Below, one piece after another: positions 49,041-58,799 of a DNA stretch of 64,000 nucleotides. The first letter of the stretch is position 1. Each line of letters starts with the position of its first letter. Made by a program: the position numbers and the translations under genes. Origin of the DNA: Acidobacteriota bacterium (GTDB taxonomy: Bacteria > Acidobacteriota > Blastocatellia > Pyrinomonadales > Pyrinomonadaceae); contig JAIVJV010000009.1 in NCBI GenBank assembly GCA_020199835.1, positions 868,001-932,000 of the forward strand. The letters run 5' to 3'. Under the pieces are notes generated by a model, which saw only the letters and a program-made list of their open reading frames with translations, did no database searches and was not told where the DNA came from.

Positions 49041-52000
49041 ATGGACAAACGTGTCAGTCACGTGCCCCTAAGACGTGACGCGGAAAACTCCCCTACTGAC
49101 CGAGGTGTGGTCGATCTCGCAGACGCCCGCGTGAAGATTCGCTCGCGTGTGCGGCCCACCCACGAATCGCTGACGCGCGAACTCGACGAGATCCGTTCGC
49201 TGCTGGACCAGGGGTTATCAACCGAAGCAAAAGCCCGGCTCGCGCTCCTTATTTCCAACGCCCGCAATCATATTTCTGTTTTAGCCCTTGCGCGCTGCGC
49301 TCTTTCCGTCGCTCTCGAACAACAAGGTCACTACCGCGACTCACTCGCGGCCGTCGCGATGTATGAGACGCCCGAGTCGCGCGTCAAACTAGATAACCAG
49401 ACCATCAGTTTGCTGCGCGTTCAAATCGGACTCGCTTACAACTACAACGGCGATCATCCCAAGGCGATCGCGATGCTGAAGGCAACGCTGCGCGACTACG
49501 CCGAAAGCGGCGGCGCTGACGTCGGCCATATTTACGCCGCGCTGGCTCGCGTCTACCGGACCATCAGCGAATATCCGATCGCGCGCGATTACGCGCAGCG
49601 AGCCTTGGAGAGTTTTCGTCAAAGCGGTGATTGGCGGGGACTGGCCGACTCTTACTTCGGCGTCGGCGTGGCAGAGATTTACGAAGGCAATTACGAACCG
49701 GGCCTCGAAAATCTCGAACAGGCGTTGAAGCTGATCGGCGATCATCCTGCGGCGTACATGCTCGGCAGAACGTACGCGAACATGGCCGGCGCTTGCTGGT
49801 TTTTGAAGCGGCCGCAAGAAGGTATCGACTACCTGAAGAAAGCCATCACGTATTACGAACGCACCGATCACAAAACGAATGCCGCCGATGGCTACAACAA
49901 CCTCGGCATCAACCTCGTTTTGATCGGGCAATGGGATCGTGCGCAGGAAGCGCTCGAGCGGGCGTTGGCCCTCGCGACGGAGGTCGACGAGCGCGGCGCC
50001 AAAGTCCCTATGATTTTGGATTCGCTGGGCGAGTTGCACATGCTGCGTGGTGATTTGGACCAGGCGAAAGACTACTTGACGCGCGCAGTGGCGTTGGCGA
50101 CTGAGAACGGAAATAAGTGGTACGCCGCACAGGCGCTGCGAACACTCGCGCGGTGTTATGTCGCGATTGCAGATCCGACGAATGCGCTTTCGACGTCGAA
50201 GGAAGCGTTGACGCTTGCAGAGATTATCGGCGACCGCCAGGCGATCTGTGAGTCGCGATTGATCGCGGCGGAAGCGCACTTGCAAACTCGTCAGCTTGAC
50301 GAGTGCAGCCGCGAGCTTCAGTTAGTGAGCGAACAAACAACCGACTCGGCCACTGATCTTGGTTTCACCGGCGAAGCGCACCGTCTCAACGGCATGCTGA
50401 ACATGGCGCAGAAGGATGCGGCCGCGGCTGCGCAGCATTTCGGCAGCAGCGTTTCGATCTTCGACATGTTGGGCGATCGTTATCGCGCGGCACGCGCACA
50501 CCTCGAACTCGGTCGCGCCTACGCCGAGATTTTGCCGGACCGTGCCGGCGAACATCTCAGTCGCGCTTTGAACACGTTTAGAGAACTTGGTGCACGGCTC
50601 GATCTGTCGCGTGCCGAGGAAGAGCTTCGCGATCTGGCGCGTTCGACTCCGGAAAAACGGCAGGAGCAATCAGCGTTGACGCAACTGCTCACACTGCGTT
50701 TGGCGGAAGCGGTCGCCTCGCGTGAGCTCTTGTTGCGCGAACTCGCTGCCGTCATGCGTCAGGAAACTGGCGCACAGCGCGTGATAATCACGGAAAACGG
50801 CGAGCGCAACGAGCCCCGTGTCGTTATCGCGATGGGCTGTACACCGGCCGAGAGTACCAAGATTGCGGTAGATGTGAACGACATCGAGGATGAAAGTGCG
50901 CGCGAACGCTACTGCAAGAAGCACGACGCGGAGTTGATCTTCTTAAAATCATCAAACGCCCCGCCGGCATTGATGTACCTCGCGCCGCGTAATCGGTCAA
51001 TGCTGCCAAAAGGCGTGGCGCTCGAACCGCTGCTCCGCGTTGTCGAGTTGGGAATGGATGTTTGCGCGCTTCGTGCGGGAGCGCAGAAGAGTGGTAGCCA
51101 CGAGAACTCGGACGAACTCGCGGGCACGAGTCTAATGCCGGGATTCATTCACTCGAGTCCGGCGATGACGCAGTTGGTTGAAGAAGTACACAAAATTCGT
51201 TCGTCGGACGTGACTGTGTTGGTCACCGGTGAATCCGGCACCGGCAAGGAGCTCGTAGCGCGGGCGATCCACGCGATCTCGTCGCGCCGCGCGAAAGTGT
51301 TTGTGCCGTTCAACTGTACCGCCGTGCCGAAGGAGCTTTCCGAAGGTTACCTGTTTGGTTACCGGCGCGGCGCTTTCACGGGGGCGGTGCAAGATTCGCA
51401 CGGTGTGATTCGCACGGCGGCCGGTGGAACACTGTTTCTCGACGAAATCGGTGATCTGCCGCTCGACGTTCAGCCCAAGCTGCTCAGGTTTTTACAGGAA
51501 GGCGAGATTCAGCCGCTCGGCGAGCAGCGTCCGAGCAAAGTCGATGTGCGCATCATCGCCGCAACGAATACGGATCTTGAAGATATGGTCGCGCAGGGTC
51601 GTTTTCGCGAGGATCTTTATTACCGCTTGAATGTGATCCGTTTGCGCGTGCCGCCGCTTCGCGAGCGTCGTTCGGAAATTCCAACGATCGTCAATTACTA
51701 CGTAAATCATTATTCGGCGAAGTTTGGACGCAAAGACATACAGATAACGCCGCAGGCCGTCGATCTTTTGATGGTCAGTGACTGGCCCGGTAACGTGCGT
51801 CAGCTGTGTAATGAGATTCAGCGCACGGTGGCCCGCGCTGAGGATGGAACGATAATTACGCCCGAACACCTCTCGCCGGAGTTGAAGCGAACCTCGTCTC
51901 CGACCACGCCCTCAGGAGCCTCGATTGCGACACTGCCGTCGTCCAGTCTGCAACGTACCGGTGGGACGCTGGCGGACGCGTTGGGTGAGGTTGAGCGCCG

Positions 52001-52124
52001 GATGATCTCGGACGCATTGCGGCGGCATGGCGGCAACATCTCACGTGCGGCGCGCGAACTCGGACTCACCCGCCGCGGTCTGTATCTCAAACTCGAACGC
52101 CACGACCTCAGCGCCAGCGCTTAG
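49041..52124 (+). CDS. Sigma-54-dependent activator with TPR sensor region
   Basis: 1027 residues. Residues about 40-545 are TPR repeats (units such as YADSYFGVGVAEIYEGNYEPGLENLEQAL). A GAF-like region follows (about 550-690). The AAA+ domain runs about 700-930: Walker A GESGTGKELV near 730, the sigma-54 contact loop GAFTGA near 777, Walker B LFLDEIGDL, and LNVIRLRVPPLRERRSEI. A Fis-type HTH ends the protein (GNISRAARELGLTRRGLYLKLE). It lacks a receiver domain, so activation must come through the TPR/GAF part rather than phosphorylation. TPR regions bind peptides or proteins. It is soluble and cytoplasmic. Convergent with the TPR histidine kinase; the peptide gene is 2.8 kb downstream. Confidence 0.93.
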   Translation: MDKRVSHVPLRRDAENSPTDRGVVDLADARVKIRSRVRPTHESLTRELDEIRSLLDQGLSTEAKARLALLISNARNHISVLALARCALSVALEQQGHYRDSLAAVAMYETPESRVKLDNQTISLLRVQIGLAYNYNGDHPKAIAMLKATLRDYAESGGADVGHIYAALARVYRTISEYPIARDYAQRALESFRQSGDWRGLADSYFGVGVAEIYEGNYEPGLENLEQALKLIGDHPAAYMLGRTYANMAGACWFLKRPQEGIDYLKKAITYYERTDHKTNAADGYNNLGINLVLIGQWDRAQEALERALALATEVDERGAKVPMILDSLGELHMLRGDLDQAKDYLTRAVALATENGNKWYAAQALRTLARCYVAIADPTNALSTSKEALTLAEIIGDRQAICESRLIAAEAHLQTRQLDECSRELQLVSEQTTDSATDLGFTGEAHRLNGMLNMAQKDAAAAAQHFGSSVSIFDMLGDRYRAARAHLELGRAYAEILPDRAGEHLSRALNTFRELGARLDLSRAEEELRDLARSTPEKRQEQSALTQLLTLRLAEAVASRELLLRELAAVMRQETGAQRVIITENGERNEPRVVIAMGCTPAESTKIAVDVNDIEDESARERYCKKHDAELIFLKSSNAPPALMYLAPRNRSMLPKGVALEPLLRVVELGMDVCALRAGAQKSGSHENSDELAGTSLMPGFIHSSPAMTQLVEEVHKIRSSDVTVLVTGESGTGKELVARAIHAISSRRAKVFVPFNCTAVPKELSEGYLFGYRRGAFTGAVQDSHGVIRTAAGGTLFLDEIGDLPLDVQPKLLRFLQEGEIQPLGEQRPSKVDVRIIAATNTDLEDMVAQGRFREDLYYRLNVIRLRVPPLRERRSEIPTIVNYYVNHYSAKFGRKDIQITPQAVDLLMVSDWPGNVRQLCNEIQRTVARAEDGTIITPEHLSPELKRTSSPTTPSGASIATLPSSSLQRTGGTLADALGEVERRMISDALRRHGGNISRAARELGLTRRGLYLKLERHDLSASA

Positions 52125-52168: not shown

Positions 52169-54559
52169 CTAGACCGTGGCACTCTTGCGCTGCGCGATTT
52201 CCTGTGCGATGCCGCAAATCTTATTGATATCGAACGGCTTTGCAACGACCCAGTCGGCATTGACAGCATTGCGTGTCTGCACGCTGATCGCATCAGCCCA
52301 GCCGCTAATAATTGCGAGCGGAATCGTCTTTGAACGCTCTCGAATCTCCGTGCACAGCTCCCAACCGCTCATTTCGGGCATGCCGATGTCGGTAAAGACC
52401 GCGTCAAACTTGCCTTCGTACTGCTCGTAAAGCGCCAGCGCGATCTCCCCACTCTGCGCCGCAACCACTTCGCAGCCTTCAGCCTCGAGAGCTTCGATCA
52501 GCACCTCCCGCACGTGAGTTTCATCGTCAACCACCAGCACGCGAACTTTGTCGTCGCTAGCCGCAACACCGGCGGCTGTAGGTACGGCATCGTCAGGGGC
52601 GGCGACCACCGGCACGACCTTAGGCAAGGAAATCTTGAATGTCGTTCCGCGGCTGGGCTCGCTGTCGACTTCGATGGAACCTTCATGTCGGCGGATGATA
52701 CCGAAACTGACGGCGAGGCCCATGCCTGTCCCGGCTTTGCCTTTGGTGGTGAAGAACGGGTCAAAAAGCCGCTGTTTCACTTCGGGCGTCATGCCGGAGC
52801 CGGTATCGCTGACGCAGATCACGACGCGCTCGCGACTTTCCTGAGTCGTAAGGCGAATCTCGCCGCCGTACGGCATGGCGTCAACGGCGTTGTAGATCAT
52901 GTTGACCAGCACTTCGCGCAGTTCGACCGCGTCGCCTTGGACAAAGGCCTGGCAATCGGCGTGGAGTGCGAAGCGTACCTGCGCAAACTCGGAACGCGAC
53001 TCCCAGCGCGGTCGGGTCATTTCGCAGGCGTCCTTCAGCAGATCGGCGATGGAGATAGTTTCAAACTCGCGGCTGGGTCGCTGCCGCGCGAAATCCTGGA
53101 TGCGGCGGATGATGTGGGCGCCGTCTTCGGCGCTCTTGATGATGAGTTCGAGCCCGGCCTTGATTTTGGCTTCATCGTTACTGTTGCGGAGGATGAGTTG
53201 CGCGCGGCCGAGAATGCCAGTGAGGGTGTTGTTGACGTTGTGGGCGACGCCGAAAGAGAGTTCGCCGAGGGCGGCCATCTTTTGGGCGTGGATTTCCTGT
53301 TCGCGTTGGGCTTCGTGGCGGCTGTGGGCTTCCGCAGTCATTTCGAGGCACTTGCGGAGGCGTTCGCGGGTCGCGGGCTGCTGGGAGTTGGCGAGGAGTT
53401 GATTGGCTTGTGCGCCGATTTCGCGGCGTTCGTCGTCGGGGAGTTGCTCGCACATTTCCTCGATTAGAATGAGGAGTGCGCGTCCGGCGCCTTCGCGGTC
53501 ACCGCACCTCTCAGCGACGCGCCTGGCGCGTTCTAGGATAGGTTTAGCGTCCTGGCGGCGCCCGAGGCGGCAGAAAATGAGTCCTTGGGTGGTGAGTGCC
53601 TCAGCGAGCAGCACATCCTCCCCACTCCCCTCAAGCGTATTCACCGCCAGCTCAATCGCAGCCTCGGCTAGGTCATACTGCTGGGAACTTAAATAAAGTT
53701 GAGCAAGTGTTTCATCTACCTGGGCACAGCCAATCGTGTCGCTCAACTCGCTGAATAGGTTTCGAGCGCGTTTCAGATGTGTTTGAGCTTCCGAAAGCCT
53801 GTCGAGAGTCAGCAGAAGATAACCGCGATTATTCTCAACCGCAGCTGCATACCTCAAGTTGCCAATCTGTTCGAACTGCACGGAGGCTTCTTCATAATGA
53901 GTTAAGGCTGTATTAAAAATCGATTTTCGACCCTCAGCTATACCCAAATCTTTAAGAGTATTCGCCATCTCTGCCCGAAAGCGGCCCCTGACAGCCGAGG
54001 TGGTCCCACTCTCTAGCATCGCAACTTGATCGAGAAGACTGAGAGCTTCGTGCACACGACCCGCATGTCGCTCAACGATTGCTAACCGAATTAAAGCCAC
54101 GGCGCGAAGGTTAATGTTTTCGTCGGTTAAGTTGGTGACACAAACCCGGAGAAGTGAGTGGGCCAGCTCAAACAGACCTTGATGGTAATAGCAGCAGCCC
54201 AGCTCGCTCTGAGCCTCTAATTTCCGAACGTTCGCTCCGATATGTTGAAACAAAGCGATCGCGCCACTTAGAAGCACTTCTGCTGAGCGCTGACCGCCCG
54301 TAATCCGTTTCGCCCGTGCTACGGAATCTGTTAAAGTGCCCGCCACCAGCAACAATTCGCCGGCGGCTAGCGGGTCCAAACCTGTTTGCTTGGGCCACTC
54401 ACCGATTTTCCACCAAGGCGCTAACGCGGTACATCCGGCATCGTAATCACCCATATCAATTTTTTCACGGGCGATTGTACAGGCTGCGACAACCCGCCCC
54501 GGTTCACATAGCAAACCGTGGGTACGAACCGAATGGTTGCTTTTCGTCTTAGCTTGCAT
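52169..54559 (-). CDS. Soluble TPR hybrid histidine kinase
   Basis: 796 residues with no membrane helix. The N-terminal 390 residues are TPR repeats (AEVLLSGAIALFQHIGANVRK, VAERCGDREGAGRALL). Then a HisKA region with phospho-His near 440 (VAHNVNNTLTGI), an HATPase (N-box MIYNAVDAM, G1 DTGSGM, G2 GTGMGLAVS) and a C-terminal receiver (about 672-790) with Asp near 721 in VFTDIGMPE. The TPR region replaces a periplasmic sensor, so an internal ligand such as an imported peptide or a protein is sensed. The TPR module is a close relative of the one in the winged-helix protein at 56-58.8 kb. It is divergent from the secreted peptide gene. Confidence 0.93.
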   Translation of the reverse strand: MQAKTKSNHSVRTHGLLCEPGRVVAACTIAREKIDMGDYDAGCTALAPWWKIGEWPKQTGLDPLAAGELLLVAGTLTDSVARAKRITGGQRSAEVLLSGAIALFQHIGANVRKLEAQSELGCCYYHQGLFELAHSLLRVCVTNLTDENINLRAVALIRLAIVERHAGRVHEALSLLDQVAMLESGTTSAVRGRFRAEMANTLKDLGIAEGRKSIFNTALTHYEEASVQFEQIGNLRYAAAVENNRGYLLLTLDRLSEAQTHLKRARNLFSELSDTIGCAQVDETLAQLYLSSQQYDLAEAAIELAVNTLEGSGEDVLLAEALTTQGLIFCRLGRRQDAKPILERARRVAERCGDREGAGRALLILIEEMCEQLPDDERREIGAQANQLLANSQQPATRERLRKCLEMTAEAHSRHEAQREQEIHAQKMAALGELSFGVAHNVNNTLTGILGRAQLILRNSNDEAKIKAGLELIIKSAEDGAHIIRRIQDFARQRPSREFETISIADLLKDACEMTRPRWESRSEFAQVRFALHADCQAFVQGDAVELREVLVNMIYNAVDAMPYGGEIRLTTQESRERVVICVSDTGSGMTPEVKQRLFDPFFTTKGKAGTGMGLAVSFGIIRRHEGSIEVDSEPSRGTTFKISLPKVVPVVAAPDDAVPTAAGVAASDDKVRVLVVDDETHVREVLIEALEAEGCEVVAAQSGEIALALYEQYEGKFDAVFTDIGMPEMSGWELCTEIRERSKTIPLAIISGWADAISVQTRNAVNADWVVAKPFDINKICGIAQEIAQRKSATV

Positions 54560-54752: not shown

Positions 54753-54764
54753 AGGTAAATACCT
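54753..54764 (+). promoter_or_regulatory. Inverted repeat, possible activator site
   Basis: AGGTA-AA-TACCT, about 44 bases upstream of the -24 element. The position suits a binding site for a sigma-54 activator (Fis-type HTH). Arms are short, so it may be chance. Confidence 0.35.
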
Positions 54765-54807
54765 GAAAAACGGAGACTTAATCCTAAGAGAGTAAATGTT
54801 GTGTGTT

Positions 54808-54823
54808 TGGCACGTCCCTTGAA
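54808..54823 (+). promoter_or_regulatory. Sigma-54 (-24/-12) promoter
   Basis: Reads TGGCACG, four bases, TTGAA. The consensus is TGGCACG-N4-TTGCA/T, so only the C of the -12 GC is missing. The GG-to-GC distance (ten bases) is exactly right. Transcription would begin near 54834, about 93 bases before the peptide ATG at 54927. Confidence 0.75.
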
Positions 54824-54926
54824 AAGTGTTGGGTTGAATCAGTAAATGCGTATCGGCCCAAGGAAGGCTTTCTTAACGAGTTCTTGAGTCGACCCGAACT
54901 TAGAAGCTTCAGCACAGGAGAAAGCA

Positions 54927-55196
54927 ATGAACACTATAAAATCAATCGTTTGCTCAACCCTCTTAGTTTTAATTCTCTCAACCGCGGTATTTCCAAAGAG
55001 CGGTGTCATATCGACCACGAAGAGCGGAACTATTTCCACAACTCGAACTGGTACTATCGCGACAACAGGAACGATTCCAACCACCCGTAGCGGAATCATT
55101 CCAACGACTAGGGCGACCACGACAACTCGCAGCTTACCCCTGATTGGTCGCTTCGAGATTTTGGATATTCTTATCACCCTCCTAAGCCCATGGTAG
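54927..55196 (+). CDS. Small secreted repeat peptide precursor (89 residues)
   Basis: ATG at 54927 with GGAG six bases upstream. Residues 1-22 form a signal peptide (basic MNTIK, hydrophobic core). Then comes a run of octapeptide-like units: SGVISTTK, SGTISTTR, TGTIATT, GTIPTTR, SGIIPTTR and ATTTTR, most ending in Lys or Arg. The C-terminus is a hydrophobic tail (RFEILDILITLLSPW). The unit pattern [ST]GxI[SPA]TT[RK] with basic ends resembles multi-copy prohormone precursors cleaved after basic residues (yeast alpha-factor style); this is an analogy only. It is preceded by a near-consensus sigma-54 promoter and lies between TPR regulators. Function unknown. Confidence 0.72.
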   Translation: MNTIKSIVCSTLLVLILSTAVFPKSGVISTTKSGTISTTRTGTIATTGTIPTTRSGIIPTTRATTTTRSLPLIGRFEILDILITLLSPW

Positions 55197-55362
55197 TCGC
55201 TTGGGAGAGTTTCAGTCAGATTGAACTCCTTAGTTGTCACATATCAGTCATTTTCACTAATTCAGCCGGGTGAATTCCCGTTATCACTCCCAGCGGCAAC
55301 CCCTGTACCGAAGAAAGGTTTTGACCATGAAATTGACAAGCACGGGCCGTATCGTAACCGTT

Positions 55363-56027: not shown

Positions 56028-58799
56028 CTACGTGGTTCTGGCGATTGCCTCTTTTATGCGAGTTACCAGTGAGGGCTGCTGAATTACAGAAAGTAAATTA
56101 GTTAGCTCATGCAGGATCTTCATTCTCTCATGTGAGTCTAGACCGTCCCTCATCTCCTCGAACAAACCTACTAAGGCTCTTCCGGCGCCGGAGTGGTCCC
56201 CGCATCGTTCGGCTACTCTGTGCGCTGCTTCAAAACACCTTTTTGCCTCACTATACAACTCCTGCTTACAGGCGATTGTAGCCTTCGTAGTTAATGCTTC
56301 CGCGAGTAAAGCTTCGCTATCGGTCAGTACCAATGTATCAACTGCCCTATCAATGGCCTCTTCTGCTGCAACGTACCGTTTTGTTTCTGAATATAGTCGT
56401 GCGAGGGTGTCGTTTACTTGGGCCCCACGTACGTTGTCACGTAAAGCCTCAAACACTTTTCGGGCACGTAGGAGGTGAGATTCCGACTCGTCGTAGTATT
56501 TAAGATCGAGCAAGAGAAAGCCAATATTGTTTTCGGCCGACGCTACGTTACGATGGTGACCCAGCGCTTCGGATTCATGCAGTGCTTTTAAGAAGTGGAG
56601 TTTCGCCTCACCTAAAAAGTGTTCATTCTGTTCCAGGAATCCTAGTTCCTTCAGAGTGGTGGCCAAATCTATATTGCAACGACCTGTTACGAGACACCCT
56701 GCAATTTCAACGTGCGCCGCTTCCCGCAATACTCTGAGAGACTCTCCTAGGCGGCCGGAATCTCGTTCAATCACACCTAGGATGATCAAAGCCAGCGTTT
56801 TCAATTCGATTTCATCTTCGGGCAACTCAGAAATAGCCGTTAATACGGTTTCTTTCGCCATATCAAGAAGCCCCTGCCGATAGTAGCATCGCGTCAACTC
56901 TACTCGAGCCTCAGCGGAACGGCTTTTAATCCCGAGTTGCTCAAAAAGCGCAATTGACCCGTTGAGGAGAGCTTCGGCGTGTCTATGGCCATGGAGTACT
57001 TGCTTGGTGCCAGCGAGGCAGCCGAAGAGCGTACCAGAAGTGAAGAGTAGGTCAGCAGCAGTATAAGCATTCAATCGGTTAAGCTTAGGCCACTTGCCCG
57101 GCACACTCCAAAATTGAAGAATTAAGTGAGCAGCGTCATAGTTCCCCGTTGCCAACTGATCACGTACAATAGAGCACAGAATTTGTACTTCTTCTTCGGG
57201 GGTCAGCTGGATGAAAGATATCTGAGAAGGGAGTCTCAGTTCGGTTTCGGAAATTGCTGTTGCCTGTATCGGCAGAGACTTCTTGTAGAGTCGCTTGCTC
57301 GTTTGATAAGCAACATACCATTGATGTATTGAAGGATAGCTCGTTTTGAGCTCACTTGCGCGGCGAACCTCCCGTTCCACGCCCTTCCAGTCCCATTTAA
57401 AGCGAAGCTTAAGTCGCTCGTCCCTCCGATGGTCCGTACCGGTCTCGAAATTGCGGGACGTTTCTCCTTGTGACTCCCGGCGGTCGTCCTCCGGTGGGAG
57501 GTAGTTCGTTGCCAGGCGCAGGTAACAGTCCACAATAGCGGCGTACGCCAGGGCGTAGTTCGGGTCTTGCTCGATCGCTTCACGGAAATGCCCGATAGCT
57601 TTTTCGATACCCGCCCGCGTGTAGCGACTCCAGTGATAGCGCCCCTCCAAATAAGCCTCATACGCGCCCGGGTTTTCGGTATAGCGCGCAGTGACGTGTT
57701 TCTCTTCCTCACCCGACAGCTTCAACTTCAGATTCAACAGGAGTTGTCGCGTAATCGCGTCCTGTATTTGCAGCAGATCCGCACGCCCAGAATCAAAAGT
57801 CTCACCCCACAATTGCCAACCCGTCGCAACCTCCACCAACTCGGCGGTAATCACAATCGCACCTGCTCGGCTCGCAATCTCAGCCTCACCAACACCTCCG
57901 GCTGCCGAGGCATTGCCATCGGGGTCACGCGCAACGTCGCCAAGGCCGGCGCCGCTCGAGCCGGCCACTACGCCGCTCCGACCGCGGTCGCCGCCGTCGC
58001 TCAATTGCGAATCAGCGGTAGCTTCGGTCAATCCCGCCCTCGTTCGCGCTACGCCCGCGGCCGTTCGGGTCGGTTTCGCCATTGCCCGCCCGGTCCTCGC
58101 CGTGGAGCGAAGGGTACCCACTGAGGACCGCTTCTCTAGCGTCGCCGGTACCACCAGCGCGGGCCGCACCTGAATCTTCCCCACCAACACCGCCTTCGCA
58201 TTCAGTTGCTTCCCAACCGCACGCGGATCGACATCATCTGCGTTGTACCGAAATACCGCAGTTCGCGACATCACTCGCAGCCGCGACACACGAGACAGGT
58301 TGTTGATGATGTTGTCCGTGAGGCCCTCGGCCAGATACTCCAGCCCCTCATCACCAGTCGCGTTGATAAACGGCATCACCGCAACAACTATCCGCTCAGG
58401 CGCCGCCTCGCCGTCACCGTTAGCCGACGGACCGACTTCCGGTTCGACAACAGGCCCCTCGCCGTCGCTTTCATACACCTTCACACTCGCAACAAAGCGA
58501 TACCCGCGTCGCGCCACAGTTTCGATGTATTTCGGACCCGCACGTTCATCGCCCAACGCGCGTCGAAGGACAAAAATGTTCTGCGTCAGGTTCGACTCTT
58601 CAACAAAAGTGTCGGGCCAGACATCCCGCAACAGATCATCTTTCTCAACGACGTGTCCCGCATTCACCACGAGCCGCACGAGTATCTCGGTGGCTTTGGG
58701 TGATAGAGCGACAGTTTCTCCGTCACGAGTCAGGCTGCGTTGAGCGAGGTTGAGGCGATATGGACCAAATTCGTAGGTGAGGTTATCGAGTTGATTCAT
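56028..58799 (-). CDS. Winged-helix transcriptional regulator with TolB-like and TPR domains
   Basis: 923 residues. Residues 1-105 are an OmpR/CadC-type winged helix (VALSPKATEILVRLVVNAGHVVEKDDLL, then SNLTQNIFVLRRALGD and RRGYRF). Residues about 130-330 are the TolB-like domain often joined to it (VAVMPFINATGDEGLEYLAEGLTDNIINNLS), interrupted by about 100 Gly/Ala/Arg-rich residues that do not fit the fold. TPR repeats then run to the end, and the last 400 residues are a close relative of the TPR module of the histidine kinase at 52-54.6 kb (HAEALLNGSIALFEQLG, VAERCGDHSGAGRAL). No membrane helix is obvious. The protein is probably a DNA-binding sensor. It is preceded by no strong ribosome site. 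Confidence 0.88.
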   Translation of the reverse strand: MNQLDNLTYEFGPYRLNLAQRSLTRDGETVALSPKATEILVRLVVNAGHVVEKDDLLRDVWPDTFVEESNLTQNIFVLRRALGDERAGPKYIETVARRGYRFVASVKVYESDGEGPVVEPEVGPSANGDGEAAPERIVVAVMPFINATGDEGLEYLAEGLTDNIINNLSRVSRLRVMSRTAVFRYNADDVDPRAVGKQLNAKAVLVGKIQVRPALVVPATLEKRSSVGTLRSTARTGRAMAKPTRTAAGVARTRAGLTEATADSQLSDGGDRGRSGVVAGSSGAGLGDVARDPDGNASAAGGVGEAEIASRAGAIVITAELVEVATGWQLWGETFDSGRADLLQIQDAITRQLLLNLKLKLSGEEEKHVTARYTENPGAYEAYLEGRYHWSRYTRAGIEKAIGHFREAIEQDPNYALAYAAIVDCYLRLATNYLPPEDDRRESQGETSRNFETGTDHRRDERLKLRFKWDWKGVEREVRRASELKTSYPSIHQWYVAYQTSKRLYKKSLPIQATAISETELRLPSQISFIQLTPEEEVQILCSIVRDQLATGNYDAAHLILQFWSVPGKWPKLNRLNAYTAADLLFTSGTLFGCLAGTKQVLHGHRHAEALLNGSIALFEQLGIKSRSAEARVELTRCYYRQGLLDMAKETVLTAISELPEDEIELKTLALIILGVIERDSGRLGESLRVLREAAHVEIAGCLVTGRCNIDLATTLKELGFLEQNEHFLGEAKLHFLKALHESEALGHHRNVASAENNIGFLLLDLKYYDESESHLLRARKVFEALRDNVRGAQVNDTLARLYSETKRYVAAEEAIDRAVDTLVLTDSEALLAEALTTKATIACKQELYSEAKRCFEAAHRVAERCGDHSGAGRALVGLFEEMRDGLDSHERMKILHELTNLLSVIQQPSLVTRIKEAIARTT
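57855..58165. repeat. GC-rich palindromic insertion inside the winged-helix TPR gene
   Basis: About 310 bases inserted in frame at the TolB-like domain. It contains the inverted repeat CGGTCCTC / GAGGACCG (58091-58098 and 58123-58130), a GGGTACCC palindrome between them, and the perfect palindrome GACCGCGGTC (57980-57989). Codon use and composition differ from the flanks. Ends are approximate. Confidence 0.5.

Follow-up and report, generated by a model that had tools for sequence, protein, structure and literature searches.

Divergent pairs of secreted-peptide and TPR-regulator genes in Acidobacteriota look like an unrecognised peptide-signalling system

In the Pyrinomonadaceae, a soil-dwelling family of acidobacteria, genes for TPR regulators that appear to be cytoplasmic, and whose sensor is of a type able to bind peptides, are regularly read divergently from a short gene for a secreted peptide, and these pairs look like an unrecognised peptide-signalling system. 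Such an ORF was found at 77 of 85 distinct TPR genes. The study began with the window, by which we mean the whole stretch of 64,000 nucleotides analysed, for which an earlier note had proposed that octapeptides released from a secreted precursor re-enter the cell, bind a TPR regulator and feed back on a sigma-54 promoter. Of that proposal, the conserved pairing with TPR genes held, as did a sigma-54-like element in one subclass and the presence of a sigma-54 activator beside 8 of 10 kinases, while neither the octapeptide nor the element proved to be general.

Results

A secreted repeat peptide and its neighbours in the window

The features of the window are collected in Table 1. The peptide frame possesses the signal-like N-terminus and the ribosome-binding site first attributed to it. 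Its repeats are likewise real; however, rather than six octapeptide-like units we count five clear ones and a decayed sixth, and not all are octapeptides. In order they read SGVISTTK, SGTISTTR, TGTIATT, GTIPTTR and SGIIPTTR, followed by the remnant ATTTTR, the third being without the K/R ending. The neighbours were also correctly described at the outset: a sigma-54 activator with TPRs, a divergent TPR kinase, and a winged-helix TPR protein.

Table 1. Coordinates of features in the window and of peptide ORFs on three contigs classed as viral
Feature	Position	Strand	Remark
TPR sigma-54 activator	49041..52124	+	tail to tail with kinase
TPR hybrid histidine kinase, divergent partner of peptide	52169..54559	-	HATPase and receiver C-terminal
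TPR sensor of hybrid kinase	53290-54559	-	Pfam TPR
sigma-54-like element TGGCACGTCCCTTGAA	54808..54823	+	TGGCAC-N5-TTGA; 119 nt upstream of peptide ATG
Shine-Dalgarno AGGAG	54916..54920	+	5' of peptide ATG
secreted repeat propeptide, 89 aa	54927..55196	+	ATG start; homologues in same place in relatives
signal peptide, signal-like segment MNTIKSIVCSTLLVLILSTAVFPK	54927..54998	+	from sequence; cleavage site uncertain in window member
five repeat units, type [ST]G[VTI]I[SAP]TT[KR]	54999..55112	+	decayed sixth to about 55130
hydrophobic C-terminal tail GRFEILDILITLLSPW	55146..55193	+	such a tail typical of peptide family
winged-helix TPR protein	56028..58799	-	convergent with peptide; no divergent peptide of its own found
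peptide ORF on L265	2659-2814	-	
peptide ORF on L266	2556-2798	-	
peptide ORF on L267	2585-2815	-	

The earlier note had named as a threat to its reading the chance that a minus-strand frame over the same bases was the conserved one. Between the peptide genes of the window and of genome G003, differences at codon positions 1, 2 and 3 number 34, 15 and 53; read in the overlapping minus frame (54839-55240), in which positions 1 and 2 are swapped, the same differences number 15, 34 and 53, the wrong order for coding. On this pattern, and on the conservation of the plus frame in relatives, the minus frame was rejected as the true gene.

A search of 59 genomes returned one full-length homologue of the window peptide (in G003; 58% identity, E 3e-15) and one partial match (in G015; E 0.003), and when 396 genomes of the phylum were searched by profile, a homologue in G128 joined them. 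With a profile of three peptides, the phylum search brought in a single new member of high score, L024; among the weaker matches taken up as loci, only L031 passed the repeat test. In G003, G015 and G128, the peptide is divergent from a homologous TPR kinase, behind which lies a TPR sigma-54 activator. The units of these three homologues vary (TGTISTTK, GNITSRT and GNITVSSN), the DNA upstream of further kinase-type TPR genes holds the units GDISGKP, AGTITGSK and GNIHGVSAN, and GDLGTDRAAA stands ahead of a GGDEF-EAL protein. The window peptide had no match in Pfam, and none of four peptides compared with NCBIfam matched above a cut-off. The L024 peptide alone gave three weak NCBIfam matches, including one to the PhrK pheromone family (E 0.0011) over residues 1-36, a region made up of the signal peptide and the first units.

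A TPR sigma-54 activator adjoins 8 of the 10 homologous kinases, the window's included; at the kinase loci of G009 and G444 none was present within the DNA examined there. The window's activator has no receiver match in Pfam. The winged-helix TPR protein combines an N-terminal OmpR/CadC-type Trans_reg_C domain with a C-terminal half that is a paralogue of the kinase's TPR sensor, and is thereby an exception to the TPR-first order described below. Similar fusions occur in G013, G009 and G017, with part of one in G005. In both the window and G013 this protein faces the kinase's peptide, as if one peptide served two receptors.

TPR genes are paired with divergent secreted-peptide ORFs

Used as query at E <= 1e-40, the TPR domain of the kinase (423 aa) had matches in 44 of the 119 genomes searched within the family, up to eight in any one of them. 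Loci were drawn from (i) 30 loci of this search and 40 further places from its list, and (ii) the best 80 of 122 named relatives, together with the window, L022, L023 and L031. Once duplicates had been dropped, along with cases in which the N-terminal part of the domain was unmatched or less than 700 nt lay upstream of the match, 85 distinct TPR genes remained, which represent the better-scoring members of the TPR family. A peptide was scored where a divergent ORF of 45-140 aa, with an N-terminus that was signal-like by a hydropathy rule only, started 80-620 nt upstream of the TPR match.

Whereas 77 of these TPR genes have such an ORF, the same-strand test gave a secreted-peptide ORF at only 2 of the 85, and just 9 of 248 other genes of the same loci, taken as controls, have one in the divergent position. 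The expectation that repeat peptides would recur beside TPR regulators in relatives was thus strongly borne out. The 77 peptides are 57-96 aa long, and in the window's own genome four of the five matched TPR genes have one.

Eight TPR genes were without a peptide. In five of the eight proteins, the winged-helix protein of the window among them, the frame begins 275-548 residues ahead of the TPR part. At L094, L113 and L133, a looser look turned up a single ORF, at L113, which was dissimilar and lay 742 nt from the TPR match there. These three are TPR regulators with no recognisable divergent peptide, and are possibly receivers of another pair's signal.

The earlier note had asked whether the unit varies with the TPR sequence. 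TPR distance does track mature-peptide distance when signal peptide and tail are controlled for (partial Mantel 0.38, p 0.005), a signal that is ambiguous because joint inheritance of neighbouring genes also predicts such a correlation, from which coevolution is not separable here. Signal-peptide and tail distances also correlate with TPR distance (0.26 and 0.24).

The peptides share a plan and differ in their units

Most of the 77 peptides share a signal peptide ending in AxA, cleavage being predicted mostly at AxA/G, and at the signal-peptidase site so predicted the next G usually opens the unit, a hexapeptide of the typical form G[ED][IM]x[TS][PG]. The octapeptide first described is accordingly a local form: it is found in the window's subclass, whereas the other pairs mostly have hexapeptides. 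Behind the first unit there is often a proline-rich stretch with a further copy of the unit, and then a tail like EIALNLLQSVLSLF, which ends in F in 41 of the 77; within one peptide the unit is repeated up to six times. A Shine-Dalgarno-like site precedes all 7 kinase/GGDEF-type peptides and 64 of the 70 others.

An exact second copy of the first hexapeptide is present in 26 of the 77 peptides, against 2 of 5838 cross-comparisons with other peptides. The figure of 26 is probably a lower bound, because the automatic placing of units was wrong in some members (for instance the window's own peptide, L075 and L118). In 25 of the 77, no internal stretch matches the first hexapeptide at more than 2 of 6 residues; multi-copy signals are therefore not universal. 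Of the 26 exact copy pairs, 3 are identical in DNA and 23 differ, by silent changes. The extreme case is L069, whose six copies are identical in protein and show 50 silent and 0 replacement differences over 15 comparisons. Silent-only differences of this kind would be expected if selection acted on the peptide sequence of every copy. They are safer evidence than the pN/pS of 0.17 between unit copies, a value biased low because only copies agreeing at 4 or more of 6 residues entered the comparison.

The TPR sensor is joined to diverse outputs

The partners look soluble, 73 of the 77 being without a 19-residue stretch at or above 1.6. Twelve were scanned with Pfam: the TPR sensor comes first in all of them, and a named output lies behind it in 11, Pfam naming no output domain in L267. 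The outputs include a histidine kinase with receiver (window), GGDEF-EAL (L075), sigma-54 AAA with HTH_8 (L099, L196 and L190), HTH_8 with a receiver (L102 and L116) and HTH_8 (L087 and L115). Short motifs, which give approximate classes and some mistaken ones (by Pfam, L116 has HTH_8 with a receiver, and L190 has HTH_8), divide the 77 partners into 46 with a Fis HTH, 11 with AAA and Fis, 5 with AAA, 6 kinases, 1 GGDEF protein and 8 that are cut or unassigned.

The pairs were selected by their TPR sensor, so that the shared sensor is a matter of selection; the outputs differ. That the peptide goes with the sensor while the outputs change speaks for the peptide as the sensor's ligand. This argument rests mainly on L075, because most partners are DNA-binding by their domains and the kinases mostly adjoin a sigma-54 activator; a GGDEF-EAL protein, found in this one pair, is not expected to act as transcription factor of its peptide gene. 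Compared with the PDB, the profile of the TPR domain had designed TPRs and kinesin light chains as its top matches among the best 60 of 108 sequences at E <= 1, with RapI (4i1a) at E 0.0034 among the generic TPRs.

A sigma-54-like element in one subclass and an inverted repeat in the other

At the sigma-54 consensus, the -24 element reads TGGC and the -12 element TTGC. The -24/-12 element first reported in the window is exact in its -24 part and in spacing, but its -12 part reads TTGA. As the pattern TGGCACGNNCYTTGAA it occurs once in the 4.87 Mb genome and 12 times in the 59 genomes, against 6 times for the reversed control, so that the 16-base motif alone says little. Three of the 12 matches stand before a window-type peptide (window, G003 and G015), and eight have neither such a peptide nor a pilin behind them, as far as seen.

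The wider form GGCA[CT]-N5-TTG precedes all 7 peptides of the kinase/GGDEF subclass at a distance of up to 260 nt (shuffle mean 0.04), and 3 of 223 control genes. Here and below, the shuffles were mononucleotide and preserve base content alone, the real upstream regions of the 223 genes serving as second control. An eighth kinase/GGDEF case with the element, L067, lies on a contig end. Spacing and GGCA[CT] are kept in all eight (L071 has CGGCAC and L069 TGGCAT), and the -12 element is TTGA in seven and TTGT in one. As a general feature of the pairs the element was rejected, since it precedes only 1 of 70 Fis/AAA-type peptides (shuffle mean 0.4); the putative sigma-54 promoter of the earlier note is thus conserved, as a sigma-54-like element, in the kinase/GGDEF subclass and not in the other pairs. 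The genome contains rpoN (PF04552 match at C3:48293-48766) as well as the sigma-54 activator of the window.

Pilin genes are sigma-54 dependent in other bacteria. Of 28 distinct pilin-like genes, taken from the genus and from G017, 14 have GG[CT]A[CT]-N5-TTG at 111-126 nt upstream (element-bearing loci L062, L233, L242, L244, L246, L247, L248, L249, L254 and L255), with T or A in place of C at -12. Because these genes show the same form, the departure from consensus at -12 may be normal here. The element is absent from L251, the one pilin-like gene read in the window's genome.

The Fis/AAA-type pairs have a different signature. GCAA-N4-8-TTGC occurs in the intergenic region of 25 of these 70 pairs (shuffle mean 1.0), and within 260 nt in 24 of the 70 as against 18 of the 223 control genes. 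Inverted repeats resembling TTGCAAG-N-CTTGCAA (e.g., at L129, L132 and L190) lie mostly about 105-150 nt upstream of the peptide start, and a TAWNATR box is found at -140 to -50 in 31 of the 70 pairs (shuffle mean 6.6). The repeat and the box are candidates for an operator and promoter between the paired genes.

The pairs are concentrated in one family

At E <= 1e-50, 52 of the 162 genomes searched in the class had a match to the TPR profile, as did 7 of the 396 in the phylum sample, in which at most four candidates were scored in the genomes listed. Every genome matching at this threshold belongs to the window's own family, by the named loci Pyrinomonadaceae. The best 80 of the 122 named loci come from Pyrinomonadaceae, Blastocatellia, Chloracidobacterium or other Acidobacteria. 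One pair (L196) is carried by a cultured isolate, Pyrinomonas methylaliphatogenes K22, and has the predicted signal GEMGTG in three copies. In literature searches covering open-licence PMC articles on peptide signalling or TPR proteins in Acidobacteriota, Pyrinomonadaceae, P. methylaliphatogenes, Blastocatellia or Gram-negative bacteria, no title or abstract opening described such a TPR-peptide system.

Three IMG/VR contigs (L265-L267) also carry the TPR gene, each with a divergent secreted-peptide ORF (Table 1), and an arbitrium-like use of these pairs is possible. A search of the three for a large terminase gave no match, and virus origin is not thereby supported. L267 also has a gene with an Xre-type HTH, and on L265 a DNA methyltransferase stands beside the pair.

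Discussion

Proposed role of the pairs

We consider it moderately probable that each pair consists of a propeptide and its cognate cytoplasmic TPR receptor, the peptide being exported by Sec, trimmed, returned and bound. The short unit after the signal peptide would be the signal, while the conserved signal peptide and hydrophobic tail would serve a shared route of export and processing. Back in the cytoplasm, the mature peptide would meet its cognate regulator and bind to the TPR domain there, which would alter whichever output is attached: a kinase-receiver, GGDEF-EAL, a sigma-54 activator or a Fis-type DNA-binding domain. The window would then contain a feedback loop, in which the peptide's sigma-54-like promoter is controlled by the kinase together with the TPR sigma-54 activator next to it. 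Processing, re-import, binding and feedback are the steps that we infer; in favour of this propeptide-receptor reading we counted the pairing itself, the variety of outputs, the agreement of units within a peptide and their silent differences, the Mantel result, the soluble look of the partners, the four genomic matches to the oligopeptide-binding-protein family SBP_bac_5 and the presence of rpoN. Against it weigh the eight TPR genes without a peptide, the 25 peptides with no good internal copy of the first hexapeptide, and the hydrophobic tail, whose conservation goes beyond what a private signal would require and which may be the active portion.

Divergent regulator-target pairs are common, and the peptide might instead be a regulated product, with a surface, adhesive or antimicrobial function, beside a TPR regulator that senses something else. 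Much of the evidence would fit: the divergent layout itself, the Fis HTH or AAA output assigned by motif to 62 of the 77 partners, the GCAA-N4-8-TTGC repeats between the genes in 25 of 70 Fis/AAA-type pairs, the resemblance of the kinase-type peptide promoters to those of half the pilin-like genes (14 of 28), and the sigma-54 activator beside 8 of 10 kinases, which makes the kinase pairs, too, compatible with a regulator and its target. We nevertheless regard this as fairly unlikely, given that the pairing is kept where the output is GGDEF-EAL (one pair, L075) and that units vary between pairs yet are often identical within a peptide.

Rather less probable is an intracellular checkpoint, in which the TPR domain would bind the precursor, by its signal peptide or tail, before export and so monitor the cell's own capacity for export or the state of its envelope, without any signalling from cell to cell. 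Binding of C-terminal peptides is common among TPR domains. The partners look cytoplasmic, and tail and signal peptide look best conserved across the paralogues. Such a checkpoint leaves unexplained why units agree within a peptide and differ between peptides. Finally, it is very improbable that modified peptides or bacteriocins are made from these ORFs, with the TPR gene as regulator or immunity factor: repeated cores behind a leader do occur in modified peptides, and the winged-helix TPR protein has a weak match to the cyclase model TIGR04510 (E 1.7e-5, 23.5 bits, cut-off 400), but the leader has the look of an ordinary Sec signal peptide, no modification enzyme was seen in the three scanned neighbours in the window or by eye in the ORF lists, and the four peptides compared with NCBIfam matched no modified-peptide family.

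We give even chances to a bolder reading, in which intracellular sensing of peptide pheromones arose independently in a diderm phylum. It would comprise dozens of private propeptide-receptor pairs, with relatives on contigs classed as viral, and a single TPR peptide sensor would have become attached to outputs as different as kinases, cyclic-di-GMP enzymes, sigma-54 activators and domains that bind DNA. If true, RRNPP-style peptide communication would extend to the Acidobacteriota, a widespread soil phylum, and a TPR peptide sensor could drive two-component, cyclic-di-GMP and sigma-54 outputs. The propeptide-receptor reading is directly testable, as strain K22 is cultured and its predicted signal, GEMGTG, can be synthesised.

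Comparison with known systems

AgrD-type propeptides resemble the peptides described here in that conserved ends flank a variable signal segment. They differ from them in several respects: we noticed no AgrB-like gene, the signal peptide here looks like one of Sec type, and no membrane kinase serves as the partner. PilSR controls sigma-54 pilin promoters, and the 14 element-bearing pilin-like genes described above share the layout of the kinase-type peptide promoters; in contrast to PilSR, the likely activator here is a TPR protein without a Pfam receiver match.

The RRNPPA systems (Rap-Phr, Rgg-SHP, NprR, PlcR-PapR, PrgX and AimR-AimP) are those of Bacillota and their phages. Like the pairs described here, they consist of a soluble TPR regulator adjoining the gene for a Sec-exported propeptide of 50-120 aa, with several pairs per genome. 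Their receptors have an Xre-type HTH, or the helical bundle of Rap, N-terminal to the TPR domain, whereas here the TPR domain comes first and the outputs (histidine kinase-receiver, GGDEF-EAL, sigma-54 AAA or HTH_8) lie behind it. Further differences are that the genes here are divergent, that their hosts are acidobacterial and not Bacillota, and that the unit opens the mature part of the peptide, with the hydrophobic tail behind it. Size also differs: according to PMC10075063, the strict rule of RRNPP_detector sets receptors at 250-500 aa, whereas the 68 of 77 partners that are complete in their loci have 429-889 aa (median 638), only 5 of the 68 being 500 aa or shorter. Because domain order, output types, size and phylum differ, the pairs were not filed as RRNPPA.

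The likenesses go further than the gene pair. According to PMC11343458, RRNPPA propeptides contain a short unit, which in some cases is present several times over, unchanged or with small differences, and their logic of export, processing, return and binding parallels that proposed here. Some RRNPPA receptors are without a peptide, according to PMC9765709, which recalls the peptide-less TPR genes of our sample. The Alo systems of Paenibacillus polymyxa, as outlined in PMC7425212, likewise comprise large sets of peptide-receptor pairs, but they belong to Bacillota and have RRNPP-like receptors. As far as anatomy tells, then, the acidobacterial pairs would work like RRNPPA systems.
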